DNA of 64,000 nt from Collinsella aerofaciens ATCC 25986 (GTDB lineage Bacteria; Actinomycetota; Coriobacteriia; Coriobacteriales; Coriobacteriaceae): contig NZ_CP048433.1 in NCBI RefSeq assembly GCF_010509075.1, positions 1,922,001 through 1,986,000 on the forward strand, in the 5' to 3' direction. A model generated the notes under the pieces. It was not told the DNA's origin. It did no database searches and worked only from the letters and a program-made list of their open reading frames with translations. The stretch's first letter is position 1, and each line of letters starts with the position of its first letter. The translations under genes and the position numbers were made by a program. Shown one piece after another: positions 29,945 to 46,408 of the stretch.

Positions 29945-31867
29945 CTAGTCGAGCGAGAGCCCGCTGAATTTGCCGCCCGGCTTGCTCCCGTTCTTCTTCT
30001 CCGGCTCGGGCCACTTTGGGCACCAGGTCGAGGCCTCCTCGCGCATCTTCCCAGCAGCTGACTCGTCGAGGCGGCGCTGGTAGGCGCGACGGTTCTCCGC
30101 CTCGTGCTCGGGGGTCCCGAGGTCGAAGTGCTCCCTTGTGGGTGTGTTGGTGCAGTCGGTGACGGGGGAGCGGAAGACGCCGGCTCGACATGCGGGCATA
30201 CCGTTGTCCGCGTGCTTCACGACGATGATCCCGTCCCGGTCCGGGGCCATGCCGCGCCACTCCCAGGGGTGTATCACGTCGTCGGCGCTCTCGCTGTAGG
30301 ACGTCGAGGATGACGTGCCCGACGCGGCCCTGCCGTTGCTCGTGCCCTGCGTGTGGCGCGTGGTCTTGCCGATGAGCTCGGTGAAGTACCGGCGGTCCTC
30401 CTCCTCGGCGAGCTTCATCGCAATCTTGACCCCGCAGTTCGCGAGGATCTTCCTGCGGCCGTCTCTCTCGCCATACTTGTTGAGCTGGGATACGTCCTGC
30501 GTCGCTCCGACCCAGAACGTCCCGCACCCGCGCCCGAGACTGAGGAGGGCGGGCAGGCACTCGACGCGGGGCAGGTTGCCCCACTCGTCGCCGAGTATCT
30601 GCACGGGGCGGGGGAGCCTGCCGCCGTTCACGTCCGCGACCGCCTGGACCGAAGCCCAGAGCTGCGAGAGGAACATCGCCGCGATGCAGTTGTAGGGGGA
30701 GCCCTCGTCGAGCACGTGGAGGAAGACGGCGCTTTTCTCCGTGAGTACCGTGTGCGGGTCGATGTCGGAGCCGGAGGTCATCCAGGCGACCGGGGCGGAG
30801 GAGAACGGGCGCAGGGCGACCTTGAGCGTCGAGAGGATGCTCCTGAGCTCGTTGCCGCCCGAGGAGACGAACTGCGACGCCCTGCCCTTGGCGGGGTGGC
30901 CGCTCGGCAGAGCGCGGAAGACGGCCTTCAGGGGCTCGGACGGGTCGTCTCCCTCGGCCTCGGTGCCGCGGTCCAGGACCTCGCAGACGGTCGCGAGGTG
31001 CTTTGATTCCTCGGGACACTCGTCGGACATGGAGACCAGCAGGACCAGGGCCGAGAGCAGGCCCCTGGCCGAGGCGGTCCAGTGCGAGCCCTTGTCTTTC
31101 TCGTCGTCCTGCACCACGAGCTCCGCGATGGCGTCCGCCGCCTGCTCGGCCTCCTGGTCGCGTCCCTCGGCATGGAGGTCGAGCACCTGCTTGAGCGGGT
31201 TGAACCTCTGTCCCCTATAGGGGTGCTGCGTGTCGAGAAGCAGGACGCGATAGCCGCGACGGGCCAGCTCGTCGCCCGTGAGTTCTATGAGCTCGTTTTT
31301 CACGTCGGAGACGATTAGGGTCGCGGGCTCGGATCCGTTGGAAGCGCCGCCGTAGCTGAGCAGGTCGATTGAGGGGAGATAGAGGAAGCGACTCTTACCT
31401 GACCCGGTGGCCCCTGACACGAAGGCCATCTTCTTGGGCTCGTAGAGATAGCAGGGTTTGCCGTGATACTTGGTGAACCCATAGACGAACCCACGTGACG
31501 AGGGATTCGTCGAGCCGTCCCAGGTCATGGACCCTTTTATGACCTCGCGACCCGTCTTGACGTGGGCGTCGCCGAGCACGCCGCCGTCCTCGGCCCTCGC
31601 GTTGAGGGTGGTCGAGTAGGCGATGAGAGTGCAGATGCAAAAGGCGAGGAGGAAGGTCAGCAGGGTTCCGAGCGGGCAAGCAGTGAACCCACCCGTGAGC
31701 CACCAGCCGAGGACGGTATCCACGCCGAACGACGACGGAATCGCAGCCGCGCCTAACGGTGTCCCGGCGACGAAATCGTCGACGGGGACGGCGAGGACGG
31801 GGCATGCGAGGATCGCTAGGAGAAGAGATGATATGAGCGCTGTGGGCATCTTGGTTTTCATGATCAT
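29945..31867 (-). CDS. VirD4/TraG-type coupling protein
   Basis: A 640-residue inner-membrane ATPase that hands the relaxase-DNA complex to a secretion channel. Two N-terminal membrane segments (about 8-28 and 52-82) precede the ATPase: Walker A GATGSGKS at 152-159, and the TraG/VirD4 signature VQILGDEWGNLPR with WVGATQDVSQL further on. The C-terminus is Lys/Gly-rich. The ATG at 31867 overlaps the stop codon of the MobC-like gene (ATGA), showing translational coupling; a second ATG at 31861 is possible. No other secretion genes are in the island, so it must borrow a channel. Confidence 0.92.
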   Translation of the reverse strand: MIMKTKMPTALISSLLLAILACPVLAVPVDDFVAGTPLGAAAIPSSFGVDTVLGWWLTGGFTACPLGTLLTFLLAFCICTLIAYSTTLNARAEDGGVLGDAHVKTGREVIKGSMTWDGSTNPSSRGFVYGFTKYHGKPCYLYEPKKMAFVSGATGSGKSRFLYLPSIDLLSYGGASNGSEPATLIVSDVKNELIELTGDELARRGYRVLLLDTQHPYRGQRFNPLKQVLDLHAEGRDQEAEQAADAIAELVVQDDEKDKGSHWTASARGLLSALVLLVSMSDECPEESKHLATVCEVLDRGTEAEGDDPSEPLKAVFRALPSGHPAKGRASQFVSSGGNELRSILSTLKVALRPFSSAPVAWMTSGSDIDPHTVLTEKSAVFLHVLDEGSPYNCIAAMFLSQLWASVQAVADVNGGRLPRPVQILGDEWGNLPRVECLPALLSLGRGCGTFWVGATQDVSQLNKYGERDGRRKILANCGVKIAMKLAEEEDRRYFTELIGKTTRHTQGTSNGRAASGTSSSTSYSESADDVIHPWEWRGMAPDRDGIIVVKHADNGMPACRAGVFRSPVTDCTNTPTREHFDLGTPEHEAENRRAYQRRLDESAAGKMREEASTWCPKWPEPEKKNGSKPGGKFSGLSLD

Positions 31868-32208
31868 TCTCGATTCTTGGAGATGAGGTTCGATAGCTGC
31901 GAGGCCGTGCCCGATACCAGACGGACGGCCTCCGCGAGCTGTTGGGCCGTCTGCGTATCCACGCCATAGGCGTTTGCGGTGCGAACGGCCTGGTTGAGGT
32001 TTCCGCCCTGCTTCTTCATCTGATGAAGAAGCTGCCGCAGCGTCGCCTCGTCGGCGATCCTGACGGGCTTCTCACCGATGAGGAGGGCGGCTTCGCGCAT
32101 GAACGTCGATGGGGCCATACCAAAAGAGGAGGAGCGCACCGTGATGGCGGCACGCTCCTCCTCGGTCATGCGGACGTTTATATGCGCGGTCTTGGCTTTG
32201 CCACGCAT
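31864..32208 (-). CDS. MobC-like relaxosome accessory protein
   Basis: A 114-residue protein with an N-terminal ribbon-helix-helix (AHINVRMTEEERAAI, then SSFGMAPSTFMREAAL) and a MobC-type helical end with GGNLNQAVRTANAYG. Such proteins bind next to oriT and help the relaxase. It begins 3 nt after the ATPase gene ends and overlaps the coupling-protein start. Confidence 0.85.
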   Translation of the reverse strand: MRGKAKTAHINVRMTEEERAAITVRSSSFGMAPSTFMREAALLIGEKPVRIADEATLRQLLHQMKKQGGNLNQAVRTANAYGVDTQTAQQLAEAVRLVSGTASQLSNLISKNRE

Positions 32209-32211
32209 GGG

Positions 32212-33108
32212 CTAGCCCCTGTCGTGGAAGGTGGCGCGCGCACCGTCGAAGTCGAGTCGGGACTCGCCCAGCGTGCCGTAGCGGTTCTTGAGGGCGACGA
32301 GCTTGAGGGGCGTGCCGGTTGCGGGAGACTCGTAGGGCCACTCGGGCTTGTCATTGTCATCGGCGAGGTAGAGCACCGAGTCAAAGCCGTACTCGACAGC
32401 GGAGGAACCACCGAACATGGCGAGGTTGGGCCTGGCCGACTTCCCGGAATCGTAGGACTTGCGAGTGGTCGAGCTCAGTGCGATGACGGGAGAGCCATAG
32501 AGGTTCGAGATTTCGCGGAGGCCCTTCACGCATGCTGTGATAGCCAATCGCTCGTCGATGAACTGCTGGTCCGCCGTGACGCCGCAGGCGAGGAGCTGGA
32601 GGTAGTCAATGAAGACGATGGGAACCTCGCCGCGCTCGCGTGTTACCAGCCCGACGAGGTTGGAGAGCTCCACGGTGTTGAGCGGGCCGGTGATGCAGAG
32701 ATTGGGGGCGATCTGGGTGCGATATTTGTCGAGTGCAGCCTCGAAAGTCGTGTGCTTAGGGTGATTCTGGGTCGCGCAGCTGGAGACCTCGGACAACGCG
32801 ACTTTGCCGTCGCTGAGACGCGCCAGACTCTTCTCGATCAGCTTGTGCGCGGGAAGCTCGGCGGAAACGTAGATTACCGGGTGCCCGTCTGCCGCGAGCT
32901 TGTCGGCCTCCTGGAGTGCCAGTGTCGTCTTGCCCTTGCCCGGGGCGGTCCCGATTGCGTAGTTGAGCCCGGGGTAGACACCGCCGAGGATGCTGTTGAG
33001 TGCGTCGAGCCCGAAGGAGGCGATGGGTTTGTCTTCCTGAAGGGCGTGGACGTGCTCGTCGAGCACATCAAGCTCGAAGACGAGGGGATTGACGTTCGGG
33101 CGCTGCAT
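32212..33108 (-). CDS. DnaB-like helicase-domain ATPase
   Basis: A 298-residue RecA-fold ATPase equivalent to the C-terminal domain of replicative helicase DnaB, without the N-terminal domain. Walker A is APGKGKTT near residue 55; Walker B is VFIDYLQLL; the DnaB-type VIALSSTTRKS and a C-terminal KNRYG motif (arginine-finger region) follow. It may unwind the excised circle during replication or transfer. It begins in a TAATG overlap with the small gene upstream, so it belongs to the same operon as the mobilisation genes. Confidence 0.85.
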   Translation of the reverse strand: MQRPNVNPLVFELDVLDEHVHALQEDKPIASFGLDALNSILGGVYPGLNYAIGTAPGKGKTTLALQEADKLAADGHPVIYVSAELPAHKLIEKSLARLSDGKVALSEVSSCATQNHPKHTTFEAALDKYRTQIAPNLCITGPLNTVELSNLVGLVTRERGEVPIVFIDYLQLLACGVTADQQFIDERLAITACVKGLREISNLYGSPVIALSSTTRKSYDSGKSARPNLAMFGGSSAVEYGFDSVLYLADDNDKPEWPYESPATGTPLKLVALKNRYGTLGESRLDFDGARATFHDRG

Positions 33109-33350
33109 TACTCGCTCGCCCCCTCTGCCAGCTTGTGGAAGTAGTCGAACAGGTCCTCTTCCATGACGAAGTACTGGTTGGCGATGCTAAAGCAGTGGTG
33201 GGTGGACTTCATGAGCTTGATGGCGCTGGATTGTCCGATGCCGGTGAGGATCTGAACGTCCAGGCGGCTCATGATGCGCTTGGTGCCGACATGGCGCAGG
33301 TTGATGCCTGCGGAGATGGCGTCGGTCTTGGGGTCATCTGCAAGATGCAT
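33108..33350 (-). CDS. Small putative DNA-binding (excisionase-like) protein
   Basis: An 80-residue protein. Its centre (about 28-52, LDVQILTGIGQSSAIKLMKS) could form a helix-turn-helix, followed by a strand with QYFVMEEDLFDYF, a wing-like feature of excisionase or MerR-type folds. RBS aaaggag precedes the ATG. It is first in the operon leading to the helicase and mobilisation genes, and could control excision or these genes. Family assignment is tentative. Confidence 0.6.
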   Translation of the reverse strand: MHLADDPKTDAISAGINLRHVGTKRIMSRLDVQILTGIGQSSAIKLMKSTHHCFSIANQYFVMEEDLFDYFHKLAEGASE

Positions 33351-33442
33351 GATAAACTCCTTTAGTAGGGCGCTCGGCTCCTCTTCGATGTTTGGCGACA
33401 GTGAGAGGAGTCGGGTGCTTGTTTATAAAATGGTTTTATCGA

Positions 33443-34129
33443 CTAATTAGCCCCTTTCTTCTCGTATTCGTCGATAAGGTGCAGAAGACTGATTCGAGCT
33501 TCTGCGGGCTCGCTGTATCCCTTGCGGGATGATCTGCCGATGTTGGCGAAATCGAGCAGAGCACGGTAAGTGCAGGAATAGCCCTTGATGTGCTCCCATG
33601 CGTTGAGAATGTATGAGACCAAAGGTGTAACGGCGAGCAACGCTGTAGGGTCTTGCAGGGTAGTTTCGAGTTCACGGCCGGTCTTAGCCTGGATACGTGC
33701 GTCGAGGTTGCACTCGGGCATCTTTGCAGCCTCTTCCATAATGAGGCAAATGCTGTCCCAGTTAGTGCGGAGATGATGAACGCGCTCGCTCGTGGTGTCG
33801 ATGCAGATCCTTGCTTCATGACAGTAGTCAAAAAAGCCTTTGATGACGTCGCGGCAATCATTTTCTGGCTGGATTGCGCTCCAGTCCTCGAACATGCCCT
33901 CGAAGGCGTCGAGACAGCTCCCATCCTCAGCATAGATGAGCTGCGCGGCCCACCTGCCTAGATCCGAGCTCGTCAGCTGCTCCATGGGAAGCCTCGCTAG
34001 GAGCGCGGACGGGGTGAGACCCCTTGCCGCGGCGAGGTCAGCGCTGGAGCGCTTGAAGAGTACCTGCTCATCCTTTGAGTTGAATAGGATTGTCGAACGC
34101 AGCTTGCTGCTCGCAGTGGTAAGTGCCAT
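33443..34129 (-). CDS. Unknown protein of the island
   Basis: A 228-residue, mainly helical, soluble protein that I cannot assign to a family. It has no signal peptide or membrane segment, a Leu-rich N-terminal third and scattered cysteines. A strong RBS gaggaggtt confirms that it is translated. It lies between the integrase and the operon of the small DNA-binding protein, in AT-richer DNA than its neighbours. Candidate roles are element regulation or accessory cargo. Confidence 0.65.
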   Translation of the reverse strand: MALTTASSKLRSTILFNSKDEQVLFKRSSADLAAARGLTPSALLARLPMEQLTSSDLGRWAAQLIYAEDGSCLDAFEGMFEDWSAIQPENDCRDVIKGFFDYCHEARICIDTTSERVHHLRTNWDSICLIMEEAAKMPECNLDARIQAKTGRELETTLQDPTALLAVTPLVSYILNAWEHIKGYSCTYRALLDFANIGRSSRKGYSEPAEARISLLHLIDEYEKKGAN

Positions 34130-34193
34130 TGATAACCTCCTCTCTGTTTGGCCTTATTTGCAGTATACATCTGGTGACACAATTATGAGAGTA

Positions 34194-35501
34194 TTAATTT
34201 TCATTACCTTCAGATAATTTTTCGAAGACTTCGGCAGCGTTGCGGTCGTTGGCTCTGATTGCGTGGGTGTAGAAATTGGCCGTCGTACTCGCTGATGCGT
34301 GTCCCATCCGCGCCTGAACGGTCTTCAAATCGACGTTGTTTGCGACGAGCGCCGTCGCTGCCGTGTGTCTCAGTCCGTGGGGGATGAGACCCGAGTATCC
34401 GGTGCCGCGTGTGTGCAGCTTGCCGTTGCGCTCGAACTGGCTTGTCACGTTGGCGTACTCGCCATAGCCGTTGTCGACGCAGAAGTCCCTGAACCAGCGT
34501 GAATAGTTGTGTCCATCGGGTCGGGTGATACTGACGTGAAGGTTGCCGTTTTCGTCCTTATGCGGGCTGAGGGCGTGAACGATGGGGTCAGAGTTTCTCT
34601 GTCTTAGCCCGCGTTGCTCGAATAGGTTGCGCTGCCGCATCTTCCAGTCGTTTAAATACGCGGCTAGCGAAGAGTCTATAGACAGGATCCGCCTGCTCAT
34701 TTCCGATTTGGGTGCCCTGAGCGTTTTGTCATTGGTGTACTGGTGGACGATTCTGATTTCCATCGCCTCGGGGTCGTAGTCTTCCCAACAGAGCCCCAGG
34801 GCCTCGCCTTTTCTGAGTCCTAGGTGGAATATGAGCATGGTGCAGACGGTCATCGGCCCCATGGGTTCGGATAGCAGGCATTTGGTGAATCGGGGCAGTT
34901 CGTCGGGTGGGAGGAAGTTGCGCACTCTAAGGTCTGGCTTTGGGAGTTTGACGCTGATGCATGGGTTGCGCCCGATTAGCTCATTCTCCAGTGCGTCCTG
35001 CATGACCTGTTTGAGCTTGACGTGGATACGACGAATCTCGGCCTCTGTGAATCTTCCGGTTGAGATCGCTTCGGCATACGCCCGTTTGATCTCGTCGGGT
35101 CTCAGCGCACCGAGGGGCATGTCGCCGAACAGCTCGCGTATATGGCGCACGTCATATTCCTCTCTTTGGAAAGAAAGAGGGGAGCCGAAGGAGCTTTCTC
35201 GGAGCCGATGGAAATCCTCGGCGTATCCGGAAACAGTGGTCGGCATGTCGCCAGCCGGTTCATAGGTCTCCAGCTCCTTCCGGTAGGCATCGAGCGCATT
35301 CGCAACCTCACCGGGCCAGTTCCTCGGGTTTTTGCTCTTGCAATGGATGGTTCTCTTGGGTGTCTTTAGGTATCTGACTCGTTTCCCGTTCTTGCCGGAT
35401 TCGGGGTCGCGACCGAGAGAGAAGTAGATGCGGAAGGAACCGGGTTTTCCCTTGATCGGTTCGGAAGTGCCTTTGGCTGTGGGTTTGATTCTGGTTTCCA
35501 T
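34194..35501 (-). CDS. Tyrosine-recombinase integrase of the island
   Basis: A 435-residue phage-type integrase. An N-terminal arm-binding domain (about 1-80, with GSFRIYFSLGRDP) and a SAM-like core-binding domain (about 85-185) precede the catalytic domain with Arg230 (HLGLRKGEALGL), His375 and Arg378 (HGLRHTAATAL), His401 (MGHAS) and the nucleophile Tyr411 (NFYTH). All catalytic residues are present, so it is probably active. It lies 240 bp from the right attachment site and reads away from it. A hairpin at 35524-35574 lies just upstream of its start. Confidence 0.96.
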   Translation of the reverse strand: METRIKPTAKGTSEPIKGKPGSFRIYFSLGRDPESGKNGKRVRYLKTPKRTIHCKSKNPRNWPGEVANALDAYRKELETYEPAGDMPTTVSGYAEDFHRLRESSFGSPLSFQREEYDVRHIRELFGDMPLGALRPDEIKRAYAEAISTGRFTEAEIRRIHVKLKQVMQDALENELIGRNPCISVKLPKPDLRVRNFLPPDELPRFTKCLLSEPMGPMTVCTMLIFHLGLRKGEALGLCWEDYDPEAMEIRIVHQYTNDKTLRAPKSEMSRRILSIDSSLAAYLNDWKMRQRNLFEQRGLRQRNSDPIVHALSPHKDENGNLHVSITRPDGHNYSRWFRDFCVDNGYGEYANVTSQFERNGKLHTRGTGYSGLIPHGLRHTAATALVANNVDLKTVQARMGHASASTTANFYTHAIRANDRNAAEVFEKLSEGNEN

Positions 35502-36061: not shown

Positions 36062-38023
36062 CTAGTTGGTCGTACCGGAATCGTCGCCCGTGCTCGTGCC
36101 CGAGCCCGAGCCCGAACCAGAAAGTGCGACCGTCAGCGTAATCGTGCTGTCGGTGGACTGCTTGCCAGTGGGGGAGACGCCCGTAACGGTGGCATCCTCG
36201 TTACCGCTTACGGGATTGCCGTTCTGGTCACAGAAGCCAATGTTATAGAAACCGGCGTTGTTGAGCGCGGTAACGGCGGCGGAGATGCTCTTGCCGTACA
36301 GGTTGCCCGGGACGGTGGCCTTGCCGGACTTCTTGGCAATGACGACGGTAATCGTGGCGCCGGGCTTCTGCTTGCCGCTGGGGTTCCAGCTGATCACGGT
36401 GCCCTCGGTAACCGAGTCGTTCTCCTGGTAGCTCACGTCGACGCCAAAGCCTGCCATATCGAGGGCGTTGCGCGCCTGGGCCTCGGTCATGTCGGTCAGG
36501 TCGGGGACGGACGTGGTATCCGGGCCGCTCGAGACCTTGTACGAGATGGTCGTGCCCTTCGCGACTTCCTTACCGGCTTCGGTGCCCTGCTCAAAGACCT
36601 GGCCCTCATCAGCCTCGTTGGCCTCCTCGGAGGCGTTGCCCTTCAGGCCAACGCTTGCCAGTGCGGCTTCTGCTTGGTCCTTGGTCAGGCCGACAAGTTT
36701 GGGAACCTCAACCTTTTCGGAGGGCTTGGGGCCCTTGGAGATTACCAGGTTCACCTTGGTGCCCTTGGTCTTCTTGGTGTTGCCGTTGGGCGTCTGCTCG
36801 GCGACCTTGCCCTCGTCGACATCGTCGTTGTAGCTTTGGTCGATGGTGCCGACCTCGAGGCCGGCTTCCTTGATCAGCTCGACGGCAGTCTGCTGGTCCT
36901 TGCCCAGCACATCGGGCACGGTGACCTGCTCGCCGCCAAAGAGTCCTGTGGCAAAGGCCACCACGATGCCGATGACGGCAACCGCTGCCACCACGGCGGC
37001 GATGATCTTGTTCTTGTTGGATTTGGGCTCTTCGACCTCGTAGGAGCCGGTGGATCCCGAAACCGAGCTACGGGCGGTATTCTGGCCGCTCACGCCCGAG
37101 ACGGGACGCACCATGGCGCGCGTCTGATCGGAAAGCTCGCGAGTCTTGGTGGCGCCCAGTTCACCGGGGGCACCGATGATGCGCGTGGGCTCCGAGACGT
37201 TGACGGCACGGCCCGACAGGTAGCTGTTGAGCACCTGACGCAGCTCGTCGGCGGTCTGGAAGCGGTTTGTGGGGTCCTTCTCCATGCACTTGAGGATGAT
37301 GCGCTCAAGGTCGGCGTCGACACCGGAGTTGATCTGGCTCGGCGGAATAGGCAGCTCGTTGACCTGCTTGAGTGCGACCGAGATAGCGTCGTCACCGTCA
37401 AAGGGAACGCGGCCGGTGGCGCATTCATACATCACGACGCCCAGCGAGTAGATATCCGAGGTGGGGCCGAGGTCCTGACCACGGGTCTGCTCGGGGCTGA
37501 CGTAGTGGGCAGTTCCGAGCACGTTATTGTCTTGCGTGAGGTGGCTGTTCTTGGCGCGCGCGATGCCAAAGTCCATCACCTTGATGTTGCCGTCGGGCAG
37601 CACCATGATGTTCTGCGGCTTAATGTCGCGGTGGATGATCTCGTGCTTGTGGGCGACCGAAAGCGCAGAGCTGATCTGCGAGCCGATCTGGGCGACCTTC
37701 TTGGGGTCGAGGGCGCCGTGGCTCTTGATGCCGCTCTTAAGGTCGGTGCCGCGCAGGTACTCCATGACGATGTAATAGGTGTCGCCGTCCTTGCCCCAAT
37801 CGTAGACGCCCACGATATAGGGGGAGGAGAGACCGGCTGCTGCCTGGGCCTCCTGCTTAAAGCGTGCGGCGAAGGTTGCGTCGCCAGCATACTGCGGCAG
37901 CATGATCTTGACGGCTACCGTGCGGTCGAGGACCTGGTCCTGTGCACGGTAGACGGTCGCCATGCCGCCTGTTCCCACCTTATCCTTGAGGAGGTATCTT
38001 CCCCCGAGGACCCTCTGTTCCAT
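36062..38023 (-). CDS. pknB: PASTA-domain Ser/Thr protein kinase (PknB-like)
   Basis: A 653-residue transmembrane kinase. The kinase domain (about 10-270) has G-loop GTGGMATV, Lys39 (AVKI), HRD at 131-133 and DFG at 151-153. A juxtamembrane stretch leads to one membrane segment (about 340-362), then four PASTA domains that sense peptidoglycan fragments or lipid II, and a Ser/Gly tail. It phosphorylates cell-wall and division proteins, including FHA partners. I chose the start MEQRVLGGRY because aggag lies 5 nt upstream. It is the last gene of the operon, about 130 nt after the RodA-PBP fusion gene. Confidence 0.94.
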   Translation of the reverse strand: MEQRVLGGRYLLKDKVGTGGMATVYRAQDQVLDRTVAVKIMLPQYAGDATFAARFKQEAQAAAGLSSPYIVGVYDWGKDGDTYYIVMEYLRGTDLKSGIKSHGALDPKKVAQIGSQISSALSVAHKHEIIHRDIKPQNIMVLPDGNIKVMDFGIARAKNSHLTQDNNVLGTAHYVSPEQTRGQDLGPTSDIYSLGVVMYECATGRVPFDGDDAISVALKQVNELPIPPSQINSGVDADLERIILKCMEKDPTNRFQTADELRQVLNSYLSGRAVNVSEPTRIIGAPGELGATKTRELSDQTRAMVRPVSGVSGQNTARSSVSGSTGSYEVEEPKSNKNKIIAAVVAAVAVIGIVVAFATGLFGGEQVTVPDVLGKDQQTAVELIKEAGLEVGTIDQSYNDDVDEGKVAEQTPNGNTKKTKGTKVNLVISKGPKPSEKVEVPKLVGLTKDQAEAALASVGLKGNASEEANEADEGQVFEQGTEAGKEVAKGTTISYKVSSGPDTTSVPDLTDMTEAQARNALDMAGFGVDVSYQENDSVTEGTVISWNPSGKQKPGATITVVIAKKSGKATVPGNLYGKSISAAVTALNNAGFYNIGFCDQNGNPVSGNEDATVTGVSPTGKQSTDSTITLTVALSGSGSGSGTSTGDDSGTTN

Positions 38024-38155
38024 TCCTGCTCCTAACATAACTATTCGCTCAACGATGTGTGTAGTACCTACGATGTGGCCGCTGGGGCCGTGTGGCGCGT
38101 TGCCGCTAACTCTTCGGCCGCGGCGCGCCTCGGGTGTCCGATTCAATCATGGGCA

Positions 38156-41026
38156 TCACGCTCCCTGTGCGGCAAGCGCCGCGGTCAGGACGATACCGGC
38201 GATCTTGGCGGCCTTGACGTCATGCTTGTCGAAATCCTCCAAGGCCACCGAGATAGCGACCGTGGGTGAATCGTAAGGTGCAAAGCCAACGAACATCGAG
38301 TTGACGTTGGTGCCGCCGGTCTCGGCCGAACCGGTTTTGCCGGCGACCTTGACGCCCGGAATCTGGGCATCGGTACCGGTACCGGACTGGACAACCGCGA
38401 GCATAGCCTGCTTGACCTGGTCGGCCGTGGCGGAGCTGACGGCCTGACCAAGCGAGCGGGACTGCGTGGTCTTGACCACGGTTCCGTCCGGGGCGAGTAC
38501 CTGGGCTACAAAGTACGGGTCCATGACCACGCCGCTGTTAGCGATGGCGGCGGCAATCACGGCGTTTTGCATGACGGTGGTCTGCGGGCCGGGCGTGTGG
38601 TCCATGCCGACAGGCTGGCCGGCGCCGGCCCAGGCGGTCTCCCACTCGGTCATGAGCGACGGGTCGGCCATGATGGAGGCCGCGGAGGTCAGGTCCTGGC
38701 CGAGCTTTTGGCCGTAGCCAAAGGCGTTGGCAAACTGCACGAGCGTGTTTGCGCCAACTTCGTTTGCCACCTGGCCGAAGACGACGTTGGAGGACACGGC
38801 AAAGGCCTGCTGCAGGCTGATGGTGCCGTAGCTCTCGTTGGCATCGTTGGTGACCGGTGCGTTGCCGATGTCCATGGAGCCGGGCGCCTGGTAGGTGCTG
38901 GTAAGGCTGGCGGTACCGGTCTCGAGTGCCGCGGAAAGCGTAACGACCTTAAACGTTGAGCCCGGCGTGTACAGCGCGTCCATGGCGCGATTGTACATGG
39001 AGCCGTCCTCGCCGCCGCCCGTCTGCAACAGGGCATCGATGTTGGTGTTGTCGTAGGTGGGCGAGCTGGCACATGCGAGCACCGCGCCGGTACGCGGGTC
39101 GATGACCACTACAGCGCCCTTAAAGCCCTTGAGCGCCTGCTCGGCCGCCGTCTGGATACGCGAGTCGATGGTGAGCTTGGCGGTGTTGCCCGGCTGGGTC
39201 TGGCCCGCGAGCGACGCGATGGCGTTGTTCCAGCTGGAGTAATCCTTAGAGCCGGTGAGCGTGTCGTTCATGACGCTCTCGATGGCGGTGGTGCCATACT
39301 GCTGGCTCACGTAGCCAACCACGTGCGCTGCTAGGTTACCGTTGGGGTAGGAGCGTACGTAGGTGCCGTCCTCCTGCTGCAGCGACTCGGCCAGCGTCAC
39401 GCCGTCGGACGTGATGATGGAACCGCGCTGGATGTACTTGGAGCGGGCGATGGTGTGGTTGTTGGTCGGCATGTCCTGATAGTCCTTGGCCTTGATGACT
39501 TGGACATAGGTGAGGTTGCCGATAAGGATGGCGAACAGCGCCGTAAAGGCGAGCACCGCACGAGTTAGACGGTTGGCAAGCGCAACGCGGCCGAGCACAC
39601 CGGATTCAGGCGTGTCGAGCAGGCGACGGCGCATGCGCGAGCCGACGGAATGGCTACCGCTGCCGTAGGAAGACGAGGTGGCAAAGCGCGTGCCCGTCGG
39701 GGCGGCGGCCGATGCGACCTGATCATCGGTGATGGCGGCCATGGTGCCGGTGCCGGTAAGCTCTGCCTCGCGTCCGGTCGCCTCGTCACCGGCGCGCAGC
39801 AGGAGCGCGACGATGATAAAGCTTGCCAGCAGAGAGGAGCCGCCCTGACTCATAAAGGGCAGGGTGACGCCGGTCAGCGGAATCAGGCGGGTTACGCCGC
39901 CAACGATCAAGAAGGCCTGGAAGCTGATGGCGGCCGTAAGGCCCGTGGCGCTAAAGGCGGCGAGGTCGGATTTAGCGCGGGCAGCTGTGGTGAGGCCACG
40001 CACGGCAAAGAGCATAAACAGGATGAGCACGGCGCCGCCGCCCAAAAGACCCATCTCCTCGCCGATGGCCGAGAAGATAAAGTCGGACTCGACGACAGGG
40101 ATGTTGTTGGCCATGCCGTTGCCGATGCCAACACCGACCAGACCGCCATCGGCAAGCGAGAAGAGCGACTGGACGATCTGGTAGCCCTGGCCCTGGGCGT
40201 CCTTAAACGGATCGACCCAAACCTGGAAACGCACCTGAACGTGCGATAGGAACTTGTAGGCGCCCACGGCTCCGACAGCTAAGAGCGCAAGGCCGATAAC
40301 GACATACGAAAAGCGCCCCGTGGCAACGTAGAGCATCAGCAAGAAGATGGTGTAGAACAGCACGGCCGAACCCAGGTCGCGTTCGAAGACGACGACGAGC
40401 AGGCACACACCCCACACGGCAAACAGCGGCAGCAGCAGTCGCAGGCGAGGGATCTTAAAGCCCAGGATCTTGCGGTTGGAGATGGAGAGTAGCTCGCGGT
40501 TCTCGGCCAGGTACCCGGCCAGGAACAGCACGATAAAGACCTTGGCGAACTCGCCAGGCTGGATGGTAAAGCCCGCGATGCGAATCCACAGCTTGGAGCC
40601 CGAGATCGTGGTGCCGATAAAGATAGGCAGCATCAGCAGAATGATGCCGATGATGCCAAAGGTGTACTTGTAGCGCATGACCACGTCGAGGTTTTTGACT
40701 AGTGCAAGCGTTCCCACCATGAGCGCCACCGAGACAAACAGGATGATGAGCTGTGAGATGGCGAGAGCGGGGGCGAGACGCGTCACGAACGTGATGCCGA
40801 TGCCCGAAAGTATAAATACGATGGGCAGGATGGCGGGGTCGGCACCGGGCGCCAAGATGCGCACGGCAATGTGGGCCGCGGCAAAGGCGGCAAAGAGGCC
40901 GATCGGTACGGCGAGCGTCTCAAAGGAGATGGCAGCGCCCGCGGTGAGGACGTACATCGCATACAGCAGGATGACGGGGAACGCCGAGGCGATGAGCAAG
41001 AGCAGCTCGGTGTTGCGGCGACTCAT
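38156..41026 (-). CDS. Fused RodA/FtsW-type SEDS glycosyltransferase and class B PBP transpeptidase
   Basis: A 956-residue protein joining two enzymes normally encoded by neighbouring genes. Residues 1-425 are a SEDS protein with about ten membrane segments and family motifs (GSKLWIRIAGFTIQPGEFAK, VVVFERDLGSAVLF, LTGVTLPFMSQGGSS). A linker of about 60 residues leads to one membrane segment (about 500-520) and the transpeptidase: SxxK S690-T-F-K693, SSN 745-747, KTG 897-899. Together they polymerise and cross-link peptidoglycan. Start at 41026 follows aaaggga 9 nt upstream. It sits where rodA and pbpA lie in other actinobacteria, between pstP and pknB. Confidence 0.95.
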   Translation of the reverse strand: MSRRNTELLLLIASAFPVILLYAMYVLTAGAAISFETLAVPIGLFAAFAAAHIAVRILAPGADPAILPIVFILSGIGITFVTRLAPALAISQLIILFVSVALMVGTLALVKNLDVVMRYKYTFGIIGIILLMLPIFIGTTISGSKLWIRIAGFTIQPGEFAKVFIVLFLAGYLAENRELLSISNRKILGFKIPRLRLLLPLFAVWGVCLLVVVFERDLGSAVLFYTIFLLMLYVATGRFSYVVIGLALLAVGAVGAYKFLSHVQVRFQVWVDPFKDAQGQGYQIVQSLFSLADGGLVGVGIGNGMANNIPVVESDFIFSAIGEEMGLLGGGAVLILFMLFAVRGLTTAARAKSDLAAFSATGLTAAISFQAFLIVGGVTRLIPLTGVTLPFMSQGGSSLLASFIIVALLLRAGDEATGREAELTGTGTMAAITDDQVASAAAPTGTRFATSSSYGSGSHSVGSRMRRRLLDTPESGVLGRVALANRLTRAVLAFTALFAILIGNLTYVQVIKAKDYQDMPTNNHTIARSKYIQRGSIITSDGVTLAESLQQEDGTYVRSYPNGNLAAHVVGYVSQQYGTTAIESVMNDTLTGSKDYSSWNNAIASLAGQTQPGNTAKLTIDSRIQTAAEQALKGFKGAVVVIDPRTGAVLACASSPTYDNTNIDALLQTGGGEDGSMYNRAMDALYTPGSTFKVVTLSAALETGTASLTSTYQAPGSMDIGNAPVTNDANESYGTISLQQAFAVSSNVVFGQVANEVGANTLVQFANAFGYGQKLGQDLTSAASIMADPSLMTEWETAWAGAGQPVGMDHTPGPQTTVMQNAVIAAAIANSGVVMDPYFVAQVLAPDGTVVKTTQSRSLGQAVSSATADQVKQAMLAVVQSGTGTDAQIPGVKVAGKTGSAETGGTNVNSMFVGFAPYDSPTVAISVALEDFDKHDVKAAKIAGIVLTAALAAQGA

Positions 41027-41042
41027 AAGCGGCACTCCCTTT

Positions 41043-42977
41043 CTAATTCTTATCGGAGGCTTCGGCCTCGGCGGACTGTTCGGCGGTTTTCTCGGAATCT
41101 GATTCGGAGGTCGATCCCTGATTGGTGTTGTCGCGAATCGTTTGCGCGTCGATCACCTGGCGGGTCTGCTCCTCGTCGATCTGGTGGCGGTACTTGGATA
41201 TCGTGTCCTGCGCATCGTCGACACTTGTTTGCGGAATGCCCGCCTTGAGGCGGTTTTGCGTGTCTTCGGGCAGGTCGGACAGCTTGATGCTGGTTTCGCT
41301 TTCGAGCCAGTGGAGCTTGAGTCCGAGTGGCTTGCCGGGCAGGCCGCGCCAGACGGCGACATTGCCCTGGTAGGTACCCAGGTAGTACGAGCCGGTGACA
41401 CCCGTGTAGGCCCAGATGCCAGCTGCCAGCACAAAGACGAGGGCCAGGATGGCGGCGATAGTAACGTTGCGGCGACGCACGCGTTGCGCCTCGCGCATGA
41501 CGCCATCGTCAACCAGGTCAACGACTACTACGGTCACGTTGTCGTGGCCGCCGGCGGCAAGCGCCGCGTCCACTAGGTTGTCGACGCAGATTTGCGCGGT
41601 TGAGGACTGCGTGGCGATGTTCTCGATATCGCTATCGGGAATCATGCTCGAGAGGCCGTCGGAGCACAGGATCAGGCGGTCGCCTTCCTCGATATGCAGA
41701 GTGAAGTGGTCGGCATACATGGCGGGGTCCGAGCCCAGTGCGCGGGTGATGACCGAACGGTTGGGGTGGACGCGAGCCTCGTCTGCCGTGATCTCGCCGG
41801 CGTCCACGAGCTCCTCCACGTAGGAGTGGTCGCGGGTCACGCGGATGAGCGTGCCCTCGTGGAGCAGATAGGCGCGAGAGTCGCCCACGTGGGCGATGGC
41901 GAGCGTGTCGTTTTCGATGTAGGCGCAGGTGGCTGTGCAGCCCATGCCGGGCTTGCCCAGGCCGTTCAGGGCCGCCTCGATTACGGCGGCGTTAGCGGCC
42001 TCGACGGCTGCGGCCAAGCGTGCTGCGTCGGCGGACTGCGGGGCCGTTTTGGCAATAGTCTCGACGGCGATAGAAGAGGCTACCTCGCCGGCGGCGTGAC
42101 CGCCCATGCCGTCGCATACGCAAAAGAGCGGCGACTGCACCAGGTAGGAATCCTCATTGTGCGGGCGCACACAGCCAACGTCGGAGCGGGCGCCCCACAT
42201 GAGTTGCGTGGTGGTGCCGGCATCATAGGTCGAGTCGGTCTCGATGCGCTCCTCGGTCAGGGGCTCAAAGCTCATGGTTGAGCCGGGGTCTTTGAGCTTG
42301 GCCTCAACGGCGGCAACGTCGATCTCGGCTGTGTCACCGGGAGAGACGGTGTCGGTCTCGGCGTTTGATTCGGAATTGTCGGTGTCCGGGGAGTCGGGCT
42401 CCTCGGACACGCGGGCGGTCGACTCGTCGTCTTGCGGGCTGACGTCTATAGGCTCGGGCGTCGCAAAGTGCGACGGCGCGGGCGTGTTTTGCGACTGGGC
42501 GGCGGGCTCGGCCACGGCATCGGACTCGCTTGCGGGCGCAGGCTGCGGGGTCTTGGGTGCAGGGCCGTCCTCGGGGGATGTCCCTGCCTCGGGCGCCGGC
42601 GTAGACGCGGGCGCAACCTCGGACGCCGGGGCCATGGGAAACGCCGGCGCGGCGGGCTCGGGTGCCGCAAACACCGCAGCGCTCTCGTTGATTGCCGCGG
42701 CGACGGGCTCTGCAAAGTGAGCCGGCGCCGGGGTTGCTTCGGGCGCTGTGGGCTGTTCCGCAGCATGTGCGCCGATGGGCGCTGCTGCGGCATCCTCTTC
42801 GCCCTCGTTATCGGCGAGATCCGAAATATCATGCGTTACATGCGAAAGAGGCAGGGAGAACACGGTGTCCTCGGGCTCCACGGGTGTGGAGTCCGCCGGA
42901 GCGGCGTGGGCCGGTGCAGCTACGGCGGCAGCCGGTGCCTCGGTCATAGTTGCGGACTTGTTCTCCTCGTCGATCAT
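41043..42977 (-). CDS. pstP: PP2C-family Ser/Thr phosphatase (PstP-like) with long N-terminal extension
   Basis: A 644-residue phosphatase that reverses the kinases of this operon. Residues 1-245 are acidic, Ala/Pro-rich and probably disordered, an extension absent from typical PstP. The metal-dependent PP2C domain (about 255-490) has RPHNEDSY, CDGMGGHAAGE, AHVGDSRAYL, LCSDGLSSMI and GGHDNVTVV. One membrane segment (about 505-527) and an extracytoplasmic tail follow. The ATG overlaps the FhaB stop codon (ATGA), giving tight coupling. A segment separated by 16 nt from the RodA-PBP gene confirms one operon. Confidence 0.93.
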   Translation of the reverse strand: MIDEENKSATMTEAPAAAVAAPAHAAPADSTPVEPEDTVFSLPLSHVTHDISDLADNEGEEDAAAAPIGAHAAEQPTAPEATPAPAHFAEPVAAAINESAAVFAAPEPAAPAFPMAPASEVAPASTPAPEAGTSPEDGPAPKTPQPAPASESDAVAEPAAQSQNTPAPSHFATPEPIDVSPQDDESTARVSEEPDSPDTDNSESNAETDTVSPGDTAEIDVAAVEAKLKDPGSTMSFEPLTEERIETDSTYDAGTTTQLMWGARSDVGCVRPHNEDSYLVQSPLFCVCDGMGGHAAGEVASSIAVETIAKTAPQSADAARLAAAVEAANAAVIEAALNGLGKPGMGCTATCAYIENDTLAIAHVGDSRAYLLHEGTLIRVTRDHSYVEELVDAGEITADEARVHPNRSVITRALGSDPAMYADHFTLHIEEGDRLILCSDGLSSMIPDSDIENIATQSSTAQICVDNLVDAALAAGGHDNVTVVVVDLVDDGVMREAQRVRRRNVTIAAILALVFVLAAGIWAYTGVTGSYYLGTYQGNVAVWRGLPGKPLGLKLHWLESETSIKLSDLPEDTQNRLKAGIPQTSVDDAQDTISKYRHQIDEEQTRQVIDAQTIRDNTNQGSTSESDSEKTAEQSAEAEASDKN

Positions 42978-43390
42978 CGACGGTTCACCTTCATGACCAC
43001 GTCGCCAATCTGGACTTCGTCGCCCTCGCGCAGCGTTGCGGGCTCCACGAGCTGGCGGCCGTTGACGAGCGTGCCGTTAAGCGAGTTGAGGTCCTCGATG
43101 ATGAGTGCCGGGCCCTGCAGCGAAAAGCGCGCATGCGAGGCCGAGACGAACGGTTCGTTGATGCAGATGTCCGAAGATGGCGAGCGACCGACGATGACGG
43201 GGCCGAGCATGTCTACGTGGATGCCGCGGATACCGCGCGGACCCTTGTCCACATCGATCGTCCAGATAGCCGAGTCGCGGCGCTGTCCACGCACAAGTCC
43301 CACGCCGGTCTTCATGACGGCGAACAGGAAGATATAGAGCAGGGCGACCAGGACGATGCGGCCTGCAAAAAGGACGATATCGATGTTCAT
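42974..43390 (-). CDS. fhaB: FhaB-like membrane-anchored FHA protein
   Basis: A 138-residue protein with one N-terminal membrane segment (about 5-27) and a C-terminal FHA domain (about 58-136) with the phosphothreonine-binding residues in VIVGRSPSSDI, SASHARF and LNSLNGTLVNG. In actinobacteria, FhaB (FipA) links PknA/PknB phosphorylation to cell-wall synthesis. It starts 6 nt after FhaA ends and overlaps PstP by 4 nt. Confidence 0.93.
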   Translation of the reverse strand: MNIDIVLFAGRIVLVALLYIFLFAVMKTGVGLVRGQRRDSAIWTIDVDKGPRGIRGIHVDMLGPVIVGRSPSSDICINEPFVSASHARFSLQGPALIIEDLNSLNGTLVNGRQLVEPATLREGDEVQIGDVVMKVNRR

Positions 43391-43396
43391 AAGCGA

Positions 43397-44410
43397 CTAT
43401 CCCCTAAATTCAAAGGTGCTCAGGCCAAACGTCAGCAGATCGCCGTTGCGCAGCGGGCAGCGCGTAATGCGGCGGTTGTTGACGAGCGTGCCGTTGGTGG
43501 AATTGAGGTCCTCGATCGACCAATCCGAGCCCGTAAAGGTGAGCTGGGCGTGGCGGCGCGACACGTTGGGGTCGCGCAGGGCAATGTCGGAAACTGAGCG
43601 CTCGCGACCGATGGTCACCTGTGCGGAGGTGATGCTATGGCTCTCGCCGCTCACGACGTCGACGAGCTGGGCGAGCGGGCGCTGCGGGGCGCGAGTGCTC
43701 GCCATGTTGGAGGCGATGCCGGCTGCGGCGCCTAGGCCCACGGCGGCACCGGTCGCGGCGGCTCCGCCCATGCCGGCAAGCGCGTCGCGCGAGACGGTCT
43801 GAGGCACCGGGATGGGTGCGGCGGCGGGGTCGGGGACGCTAGGCGCGAAGGGGTCTGCCACGGCAAGCGGGTCGGGAGCGGCGGCGCGAGGCGTCGGCTG
43901 CTGCTGGGGCATGGCGGCGGGGCGCTGCTGCTGCGGGGCAGCAAACTGCTGCTGGCCGGCGCGCGGGGCGCTGGCGGCACGGCTTGCCGCGGAGTTGTTC
44001 TGGCCCAGGCCGTTCTGATAGGCGCGCTCTTCTTCGTACAGGCGGCCGAGCGTGGGGGCATCGACGTTCTCGGCAAAGACCGAGAACTTGCCGGCGCGCA
44101 GCTGCGGATCGATCATAAAGCGCACGAGGGGCTCGCCGACAAAGACATAGCGGCGCTTTTCGGCCTGCGCCTTCACGAACTCGCGGACCTCGCGCGAAAG
44201 CTCGGGGTAGAACGGGGCGAGCATGGGATCGTCGTCGGCGGCGATCAGGATGGTATAGAGTGCCGGCGCCGTGTTGACGCCGTTGATCACCAGAGTCTGA
44301 TCCTCCATGTCGCGAGCGGCCTGCTTGGCAAGCTTCTTAAAGGAGAACGGGGCACGGGTGGCACCGAAGATGCCGGCCACGTGGTCCTCGAAGATGTTCA
44401 GGAAGTTCAC
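43397..44410 (-). CDS. fhaA: FhaA-like protein, DUF3662 plus FHA domain
   Basis: A 337-residue cytoplasmic protein. The N-terminal DUF3662 domain (about 1-125, MNFLNIFEDHVAGIFGA) is the part known in FhaA; a Gln/Pro/Ala-rich linker follows (about 140-240), then an FHA domain (about 255-335; VTIGRERSVSDI, SRRHAQL, LNSTNGTLVNN). FhaA binds phosphorylated MviN-type proteins and PknB in related bacteria. It overlaps the end of the upstream kinase gene by 4 nt. Confidence 0.94.
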   Translation of the reverse strand: MNFLNIFEDHVAGIFGATRAPFSFKKLAKQAARDMEDQTLVINGVNTAPALYTILIAADDDPMLAPFYPELSREVREFVKAQAEKRRYVFVGEPLVRFMIDPQLRAGKFSVFAENVDAPTLGRLYEEERAYQNGLGQNNSAASRAASAPRAGQQQFAAPQQQRPAAMPQQQPTPRAAAPDPLAVADPFAPSVPDPAAAPIPVPQTVSRDALAGMGGAAATGAAVGLGAAAGIASNMASTRAPQRPLAQLVDVVSGESHSITSAQVTIGRERSVSDIALRDPNVSRRHAQLTFTGSDWSIEDLNSTNGTLVNNRRITRCPLRNGDLLTFGLSTFEFRG

Positions 44411-46260
44411 GAAAGATCACTCTCCGTATAAGTTCTTTGGTATCCGAGCAAATATAGGCATATCCCAACGATTATAGAGGATAGGATTCCCGCAACCGCC
44501 GCCTTGGCGATGACCGCGGCTGCAAGGCTGGCAATTTCCATATGGTGTGCAAGACAGGACGCCGCTGCGCAGCCGATGCCGGTGACAGCGATGGCGGCGA
44601 TTGCGGCAAGGTTTGAGCCCTGATTGGCACGCTTGGCATGGACATTGAGCAGCGCAGATGACGCCGCGGCAGTTGCCGCGACCAGCACAAAGGCAGCCCA
44701 AAGGAGCGGGTCTCCCAGCGCTGCGGCAACGTTACCGAGCCCCAGCACGCCTCCGGCTGAAAGCGCGACCGTGGCCAGACGGGCAAAAAGCGCGCCCATG
44801 CCCGTTGCCGCGGCGGCGCTTGCCGGGCCGAGCCAAAATGACGCGACGCCGGCGGCGACCCCAGCTGCCAGGAAGGTATTGCCGGTCAGACAGCCAAGCG
44901 CGAGTGCACAGGTGAGCGTGGCGCTCGCGGCAGTCTCGGTGCGACCCCAGGCGATCCACCAACCGGACATGGCGGCGGCAAAGATCACCGCGACGGGCAG
45001 CATCGACAGGATGCCCTGTGCCTGCATGGTGGCGTTGGCCATGAGCACCAAAAAGCCCACAGCCGAGATGGCCGAGCCAATCTGGGGGGCCAGGCCAGCC
45101 GCCGCTCCGATCGCGATAGCCGCAATGACCAGGCCGGGAAGCGCCGCGACCCCGGCCGTTTGCATCAGCAAAAAGCTAAAGGTGCCGCACGTTAGCGCCG
45201 AGATAGTGCGCATGGTGTAGTCGCGCGCATGGCTCCAGCGCGTGCCCGCCCAGCCGAGTGCGGGGTCGACCTCGATGGCGTCGTCCTCGTAGTGCGACGG
45301 CTCGATATCGTCGAGCTCCTGCTCGTCATCCGAAAGCTCGCCAACCATTTGCTCCAGGCTGCGACGGCCTTCGCGCACGCTGCCCAGACCGGCAAGGAGC
45401 TGGTCGCAAAATGCCTCGATGCTGTTGGGGCGGTCCTGCGGCATGGGGGAGAGCGCGCTCATGAGCGCGCTCTCGGCTCCCGGGGGAAAGTGTGGTATCA
45501 GCTCGCTGGGATAGGTGGCGCCGCCGATGATGTGGCCGAGCGAGTCGGCGGGCGTGGCCGCCATAAAGGGGGCGCTGCCACACAGGCCCTCGTAGATCAC
45601 ACAGGCAAGGGCAAAGACATCAGCGCGTTCGTCGACCGTGCCGGTCTCGATATCGAGCTGCTCGGGCGGCATGTAGCCGATGGTGCCGCCGCGCGAACCG
45701 CCAAAGCCACCGGCGGACGACAGTCGCGCCATGCCAAAGTCGGTGAGCTTTACATTGCCCGAGTGGTCGATGAGCACGTTGGCGGGCTTAATGTCCAGGT
45801 GGAGTACGCCATTACTATGGGCGAAGGTGAGCGCCTGGCCCAGGGCATCGGCAATAGCTGCGGCCTCGTCAAAGGTAAGTGAGTGGCCGTCCACGCGGTG
45901 CAAAAACTCGGCCAGCGACATGCCATCGACATACTCCATGACTAGGTAGGCATAGGCTGTGTCGTGCGTAAAGTCGATGACCTGCACGATATTGGGATGT
46001 TGAAGCATGGCGGCGGTGTGCGCCTCGCGCAGGACATCCATGATGTCGCTGGCGGGCATGCCAGCACCGTTGATAAGGGGGATACGCTTAATGGCGACGC
46101 GGCGGCGCAGGTGCGTGTCGCGGCAGATCTCGATGGAGCCAAAACCGCCGGTCGCAAGTGTCTCGAGCGGCTGGTACCGCTTGAGCAGCTCGCGAGAGCT
46201 GGTGCCCTCCAAAGGAACGTCCGGCGAGAACCGGGCGGTATGTTGCGAGAAAAGCGGCAT
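44407..46260 (-). CDS. Ser/Thr protein kinase with multi-pass membrane domain
   Basis: A 617-residue kinase, first gene of the operon. The kinase domain (about 29-290) has ATGGFGSI, Lys58 (AIKR), DFG at 174-176, and the catalytic loop HLDIKPAN at 154-161, where the Arg of the usual HRD is replaced by Leu, a non-RD kinase. Unlike PknA or PknB, the C-terminal half (about 365-610) is a run of eight to ten Ala/Gly-rich membrane segments and no PASTA domain is present. Start at 46260 has gaggg upstream. It takes the place of pknA in the operon; the membrane part may sense something or act as an anchor. Confidence 0.88.
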   Translation of the reverse strand: MPLFSQHTARFSPDVPLEGTSSRELLKRYQPLETLATGGFGSIEICRDTHLRRRVAIKRIPLINGAGMPASDIMDVLREAHTAAMLQHPNIVQVIDFTHDTAYAYLVMEYVDGMSLAEFLHRVDGHSLTFDEAAAIADALGQALTFAHSNGVLHLDIKPANVLIDHSGNVKLTDFGMARLSSAGGFGGSRGGTIGYMPPEQLDIETGTVDERADVFALACVIYEGLCGSAPFMAATPADSLGHIIGGATYPSELIPHFPPGAESALMSALSPMPQDRPNSIEAFCDQLLAGLGSVREGRRSLEQMVGELSDDEQELDDIEPSHYEDDAIEVDPALGWAGTRWSHARDYTMRTISALTCGTFSFLLMQTAGVAALPGLVIAAIAIGAAAGLAPQIGSAISAVGFLVLMANATMQAQGILSMLPVAVIFAAAMSGWWIAWGRTETAASATLTCALALGCLTGNTFLAAGVAAGVASFWLGPASAAAATGMGALFARLATVALSAGGVLGLGNVAAALGDPLLWAAFVLVAATAAASSALLNVHAKRANQGSNLAAIAAIAVTGIGCAAASCLAHHMEIASLAAAVIAKAAVAGILSSIIVGICLYLLGYQRTYTESDLS

Positions 46261-46408
46261 GGCCAACCCTCGTGCGTTTAAAGTTCGTTTGCGAGCGGCG
46301 GGCGCGGAGCCGAGCCGTTCGCGGTGGCATAGATGCTGCTAGTGTAGCACGCGCAGGTGGGCGACATTCAATTTAAGCTCCGTCTGGGGTCTGGACCTTG
46401 CGTCCGGC

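Follow-up and report, generated by a model that had tools for sequence, protein, structure and literature searches.

On its minus strand the window, by which we mean the whole analysed stretch of 64,000 nucleotides from Collinsella aerofaciens ATCC 25986, carries a row of kinase, FHA and phosphatase genes, within which a single open reading frame encodes both a SEDS polymerase and a class B penicillin-binding protein (class B PBP, bPBP). The features of this region are as follows.

36062..38038, minus strand: PASTA Ser/Thr kinase gene (PknB type), next downstream of the fusion gene, with a putative start codon at 38038
38156..41026, minus strand: SEDS-bPBP fusion gene (RodA-PbpA type), 956 aa, ATG at 41026, stop codon at 38158-38156
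38213..39118, minus strand: transpeptidase domain PF00905 (Pfam), residues 637-938, with S690xxK693, SSN745-747 and KTG897-899
39185..39427, minus strand: PBP_dimer_2 domain PF21922 (PbpA type, Pfam), residues 534-614
39494..39577, minus strand: hydrophobic stretch, residues 484-511, predicted from hydropathy to be the single transmembrane helix of the PBP half
39578..39784, minus strand: linker, residues 415-483, predicted to be cytoplasmic, containing T472 in a TPESGVLGR motif
39785..40831, minus strand: SEDS polymerase domain PF01098 (FTSW_RODA_SPOVE, Pfam), residues 66-414
40082-40084, minus strand: catalytic Asp D315 of the SEDS half, from the alignment to E. coli RodA
41035..41042, minus strand: Shine-Dalgarno-like AAAGGGAG before the fusion start, duplex energy -8.1 kcal/mol
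41043..42977, minus strand: PP2C phosphatase gene (PstP type, Pfam), next upstream, ending at 41043
42974..43390, minus strand: FHA-domain protein gene (FhaB type, Pfam)
43397..44410, minus strand: gene for a protein with FhaA_N and FHA domains (FhaA type, Pfam)
44407..46266, minus strand: second Ser/Thr kinase gene (Pfam) at the head of the gene row, C-terminal half of the product hydrophobic by eye

The 956-aa translation of 38156-41026 has no internal stop, and both Pfam domains are present in it. This is in good agreement with the sequence-only reading of the locus, which had given correct coordinates but no strand and had proposed one polypeptide with complete SEDS and transpeptidase domains, encoded between the phosphatase and the PASTA kinase genes; the motifs S690xxK693, SSN 745-747 and KTG 897-899 lie at exactly the residues it had named, and Pfam places PP2C upstream and the PASTA kinase downstream. 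The PF01098 match scores 250.2 bits (cut-off 26.4) and covers profile positions 13-352 of 356. In the SEDS half, where a SEDS protein would have ten transmembrane helices, the hydropathy stretches merge and individual helices are not separable. In the alignment to E. coli RodA (chain 8tj3_B), D315 falls on position 262, which is the named catalytic Asp in the available part of Nygaard et al. 2023 (PMC10449877). The PBP half is of the PbpA subtype, as PF21922 scores 85.9 bits against a cut-off of 27. D315, S690, K693, S745, N747, K897 and G899 are invariant in 116 aligned rows, and T898 is a Thr in 115 of them. Class A PBPs likewise combine polymerase and transpeptidase in a single chain, but their polymerase is GT51 (PF00912), which is not among the Pfam matches of the fusion protein.

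The 22 named matching loci belong to Collinsella aerofaciens or Collinsella sp., except for one Olsenella record, and many are 96-100% identical to the window protein. As to structures, the SEDS and transpeptidase domains are homologous to those of E. coli RodA-PBP2 (8tj3) and, for SEDS, T. thermophilus RodA (6pl5); the natural genes of RodA and PBP2 are separate. The PBP half matches 3un7 and 3lo7, PDB chains that bear the name Penicillin-binding protein A, and its closest solved relatives are 4jbf, 4ra7, 4n1x and 4mnr ('Peptidoglycan glycosyltransferase'). These four chains of 453-482 aa match from query residue 510-516 onwards and lack the SEDS half. A segment of 4mnr is 98% identical to a locus of the same order (L157) whose SEDS and PBP parts share one frame.

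The operon fha-pstP-rodA-pbpA-pknA/B is of the mycobacterial type. The order FHA-FHA-PP2C-SEDS-PBP-kinase was found in the window, in seven out of seven class loci and in seven out of seven outgroup loci, so that the gene order of the mycobacterial-type rodA-pbpA operon is matched in the outgroup loci examined, and the PBP subtype PF21922 is common as well. The outgroup RodA and PbpA are encoded by two abutting or overlapping genes, with an extra kinase gene before the PASTA kinase in four of the seven loci (L245, L249, L250, L251), whereas the fusion is one chain. The second kinase of the window has a match at the same place in five of the seven class loci; the other two stretches end soon after FhaA. 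No tRNA was detected by ARAGORN at 28-48 kb of the window. Judged from the operon, the neighbouring kinase, phosphatase and FHA proteins probably control the fusion.

How widely the fused frame is kept in the class was addressed with several searches. From 134 loci taken in, four were left out that show one half only, all from G016, an assembly in which contigs break off within the linker. In each of the other 130 class loci, which have both sides of the junction visible and represent 114 distinct genomes and 19 families (by family code), the SEDS and PBP halves are in a common frame; a frameshift or stop in the linker, set beforehand as the refuting finding, was thus seen in none of them. With the whole protein as query, 19 of 29 relatives match in one piece and eight in two pieces within open frames of equal length, leaving G016, divided between two contigs, and G024, which has no strong match. 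A PF21922 profile search yielded any match in 292 of 296 class genomes and a strong one (best E at most 6.4e-16) in 281, the 11 weak matches being within the range of other PBPs. Among the matches listed, frames are at least 917 aa long except in G016 (528) and G237 (652). To the question raised beforehand of how broadly Coriobacteriia carry the fusion, these 281 genomes give the answer, and no unfused pair turned up. It is a trait of most sampled class members, wider than one gene.

Class genomes beyond the matches listed were searched again in two sets. Strong PF21922 matches occur in 67 of 80 genomes of the first of these, 64 of them in a frame of at least 889 aa; the frames of the remaining three (G049, G055, G058) are short and reach contig ends, and the junction is in frame. 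In the third set, 70 of 73 genomes have a strong match and 64 a frame of at least 915 aa. All six short frames (G025, G028, G056, G161, G262, G282) are in frame at the junction; that of G161 reaches a contig end, and those of G025 and G028 lie near contig starts. Frame changes within a domain break the fusion gene in G056 (L183), G237 (L186), G262 (L184) and G282 (L185), reflecting either real decay or assembly error. In these four as well as in G049, G055, G058 and G161, the end of the SEDS part and the start of the PBP part are in a common frame (8/8).

A separate PbpA-type gene was not seen among the class genomes searched. Strong PF21922 matches are missing from 15 of the 296 genomes plus G024, and from 13 of 80 and three of 73 in the second and third search; there the gene is absent or located in unassembled parts. 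Six genomes of this kind are 90-99% complete (G024, G090, G094, G118, G124, G152) and have probably lost the fusion, which suggests that the protein is dispensable in some members of the class. Both sampled members of family f20 (G094 and G124) lack a strong match to the PbpA domain.

In the outgroup genomes checked, the two genes are separate. Among the matches listed for 198 phylum genomes, 181 of them from outside the class, strong PF21922 hits lie mostly in frames of approximately 450-650 aa, too short for both halves. In all 24 outgroup genomes with long frames, picked among the matches listed, the SEDS and PBP open frames differ in length and hence are different reading frames. We measured the junction in 26 distinct outgroup genomes (29 loci, three of them repeats): from the SEDS stop to the nearest possible PBP start, a candidate start codon, the distance is -8 to +1 nt in 26 out of 26, and a 4-nt stop/start overlap is available in 21. 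We infer that the outgroup genes are translationally coupled. The pairs are in different frames in 25 of the 26 genomes, and in G380 they are in one frame with a TAG between. At this locus (L118), where only TAG and then ATG separate SEDS and PBP, the arrangement is close to a state from which the fusion could arise. Among six further loci from the genus of G349, four have both genes in different frames and two show no PBP. A fusion in other actinobacterial classes was therefore rejected for the checked cases (24 of 24 long-frame suspects and four of four further pairs unfused); phyla other than Actinomycetota were covered through plasmid records only.

For the phylogenies, 36 of 72 other representatives were chosen by eye and joined with the window protein. 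In these quick trees without bootstrap, in which long branches such as L235 are not securely placed, the 37 class rows form one clade for the SEDS halves (SH-aLRT 99) as well as for the PBP halves (SH-aLRT 96). The SEDS tree groups the fusion with outgroup SEDS genes adjoining pbpA, apart from the ftsW/rodA paralogues. As each half is one clade, the simplest reading is that the coupled genes fused a single time, in the common ancestor of the Coriobacteriia. The sequence-only reading had assumed two adjacent genes (rodA, pbpA) of one operon in related bacteria, which is borne out by separate frames and shared synteny in the outgroups checked, and its interpretation as a gene fusion is supported by domain hits, synteny, trees and the separate outgroup frames.

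The genome has three SEDS genes and four PF00905 genes. One SEDS gene passes the FtsW cut-off and clusters with mraY, murD and ftsZ; the PBP adjoining it is under all equivalog cut-offs and is labelled FtsI by position only. Another SEDS gene adjoins a PBP2 gene (above its cut-off) near mreC and mreB; its score exceeds the threshold of the RodA_shape subfamily (NF037961) and stays below that of TIGR02210. The fusion itself is under the NCBIfam cut-offs with 195.3 of 336.7 bits for TIGR02210 (RodA), 243 of 337.5 for TIGR02614 (FtsW) and 267.9 of 455 for TIGR03423 (PBP2). Since separate ftsW and rodA-PBP2 genes are present, the fusion is a predicted third SEDS-bPBP synthase beside FtsW/FtsI and RodA/PBP2. 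A domain search found GT51 in six of six genomes searched from the window's family, so class A PBPs coexist with the fusion. The earlier proposal that the fusion joins a complex known to work as a pair needs qualifying: the gene is one of three SEDS genes and is not the canonical elongasome or divisome pair. Likewise, the fusion stands as proposed, while little may be gained from fixing the ratio at 1:1, given that the stop and start codons of the separate outgroup genes already touch or overlap.

The linker behaves as coding sequence. In a comparison of 17 Collinsella strains, most of which are too close to be informative, the linker of L017 against the window gives pS 0.353 and pN 0.065, that is, synonymous changes prevail; pN exceeds that of either half (0.011 and 0.019). 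Purifying selection acts on the linker. Four internal start candidates (ATG, GTG) in the linker show Shine-Dalgarno duplex energies of -1.1 to +1.7 kcal/mol, whereas the gene starts of the fusion, phosphatase and two FHA proteins reach -4.8 to -8.1 kcal/mol. Separate production of the PBP half by internal initiation was rejected on these weak energies, itself a weak test because the TTG gene start at 46266 also scored badly (+0.4 kcal/mol) and the 5th percentile across all positions in the fusion gene is -5.2.

By hydropathy, the linker follows the last hydrophobic stretch of the SEDS half and precedes the only one of the PBP half. The topology of SEDS proteins and class B PBPs is known and places a SEDS-to-PBP linker in the cytoplasm, and for this reason we take the linker to be cytoplasmic. 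The stretch matching residues 406-505 measures 54-55 aa in class members from other orders. Within the order it has 79-115 aa in the window's family, whose additional residues look low-complexity, and 56-115 aa in the remaining families. TPESGVLGR is the best-kept portion of the long linker and lies on the PBP juxtamembrane side. Across 116 rows, near-identical strains among them, L478 is invariant and G479 and R480 each occur in 115; T472 is a Thr in 63 of the 65 rows having the position, again partly near-identical strains. One might think of the lengthened linker in the Collinsella family and neighbouring families as a switch in which the adjacent PASTA kinase phosphorylates T472, the FHA proteins recognise the modified site and the phosphatase returns it to its initial state. 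We regard this as rather unlikely; if true, one phosphosite would tune polymerase and cross-linker together in a chain unable to swap partners.

Taking the evidence together, we are confident that the locus encodes a single-chain synthase of a SEDS protein and a PbpA-type class B PBP that goes back to one ancestral fusion, acts as a third synthase and is probably controlled from its kinase operon. The single frame, the intact active-site residues in both halves, the conservation, the clade structure and the operon are established. As predicted from the domains, the RodA-type SEDS half would polymerise lipid II and the PbpA-type class B PBP half would cross-link the strand, the cytoplasmic linker joining the SEDS glycosyltransferase to the penicillin-binding protein; the chain is predicted to be enzymatically active, and the halves may dock within the molecule as RodA and PBP2 do. 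The source would be the rodA-pbpA pair of the actinobacterial fha-fha-pstP-rodA-pbpA-pknB operon, and a small frame change or stop loss may have put the overlapping stop and start of the coupled genes into one frame. This presumably occurred once, in the Coriobacteriia ancestor, and has been retained since, with the product serving as a third SEDS-bPBP synthase, probably governed by the neighbouring kinase, phosphatase and FHA proteins.

Several other explanations were weighed against this single-chain synthase. Spurious long frames do occur, as the 24 long-frame outgroup suspects, each consisting of two frames, demonstrate, and one may ask whether an error of sequencing or assembly produced the fusion, or whether two genuine genes are read through by chance. 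The in-frame junctions (130 of 130 loci in 114 genomes), the selection on the linker and the conserved L478-G479-R480 refute this, and its probability is vanishingly small. Hardly more credible is that the fusion represents the canonical elongasome RodA-PBP2 or divisome FtsW-FtsI of the genome in fused form. The fusion does match the RodA, FtsW and PBP2 models of NCBIfam, but the matches listed (25 of 27) are all under the curated cut-offs; moreover, a separate ftsW cluster and a SEDS gene beside PBP2 exist, and the SEDS tree sets the fusion with the outgroup genes next to pbpA, apart from the paralogues. This identity is refuted by the presence of the other pairs.

More of a case can be made for a chain that is made whole and then cut in the linker, giving a classical two-subunit complex: the stretch matching residues 406-505 is longer in the window's family, with an extra part that looks low-complexity, than the 54-55 aa outside the order. 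However, in other orders of the class the linker has hardly any additional residues, and the best-kept part of the long linker sits at the PBP juxtamembrane side, which makes cleavage quite improbable. A further view concerns why the fusion persists and not what it is: it may confer no advantage and simply be inherited, one indel or stop loss having fused an overlapping pair whose product still works, with re-splitting improbable. The tight outgroup junctions (26 of 26 within -8 to +1 nt, 21 with the 4-nt overlap), the in-frame G380 pair with its TAG and the widely differing linker length among lineages speak for it; no re-split was found in 130 loci, which counts somewhat against it, though such a ratchet also predicts retention. 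We give this view nearly, but not quite, an even standing.

Single-ORF SEDS-PBP fusions are already known as a kind, and the Coriobacteriia fusion adds a member. According to the available part of Nygaard et al. 2023 (PMC10449877), single ORFs encoding such fusions exist, for which the Rhodococcus RHA1 genome paper is cited. We find two on Rhodococcus plasmids: L235:4497-7148 (883 aa), beside PP2C and FHA genes, and L236:4743-7583 (946 aa), with PF03717. In the alignment an Asp occupies the catalytic position of each, and the SxxK, SxN and KTG motifs are present; both lack PF21922. In the SEDS tree, L236 is a long branch placed with the ftsW/rodA paralogues. Whereas the Coriobacteriia fusion is chromosomal, spread over the class and has PF21922, these are plasmid-borne; as they carry other PBP types, they look like separate fusion events. 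The surroundings of L235 resemble a small copy of the chromosomal kinase operon. Artificial counterparts exist as well: in the accessible text of PMC10449877 the E. coli RodA-PBP2 complex was made as a synthetic fusion with an 8-residue linker and was active in lipid II polymerisation and bocillin binding, and that of PMC6207328 describes partial rescue of E. coli rod shape by a similar synthetic RodA-PBP2 fusion. The available portions of PMC8262863 and PMC10257715 contain no mention of natural SEDS-PBP fusions, and searches of openly licensed papers, at the top of the longer results, gave no description of a class-wide fusion in Coriobacteriia.

The fusion is real and old, and its component parts and likely job are familiar. 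Whether SEDS proteins and class B PBPs stay together or exchange partners during synthesis is, to our knowledge, an open point. This class has apparently kept the partners in one covalent chain ever since it arose, which suggests that the pair can function when permanently coupled 1:1; the fixed coupling and the descent from abutting genes also allow clean tests. As natural single chains whose pairing is fixed, these proteins lend themselves to structural and coevolution work and are one-chain targets in common human gut bacteria.

Two minor observations concern the locus and its surroundings. ORFs at 31864-35501 of the window, near the kinase operon, resemble a mobile element by eye, with a 435-aa integrase-like protein and smaller neighbours. 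In the comparison of the window (38156-39601) with L016 and L214, pS is 0.254 in the PBP half and 0.106 in the SEDS half; the fusion gene thus looks mosaic in some Collinsella strains, perhaps due to recombination.
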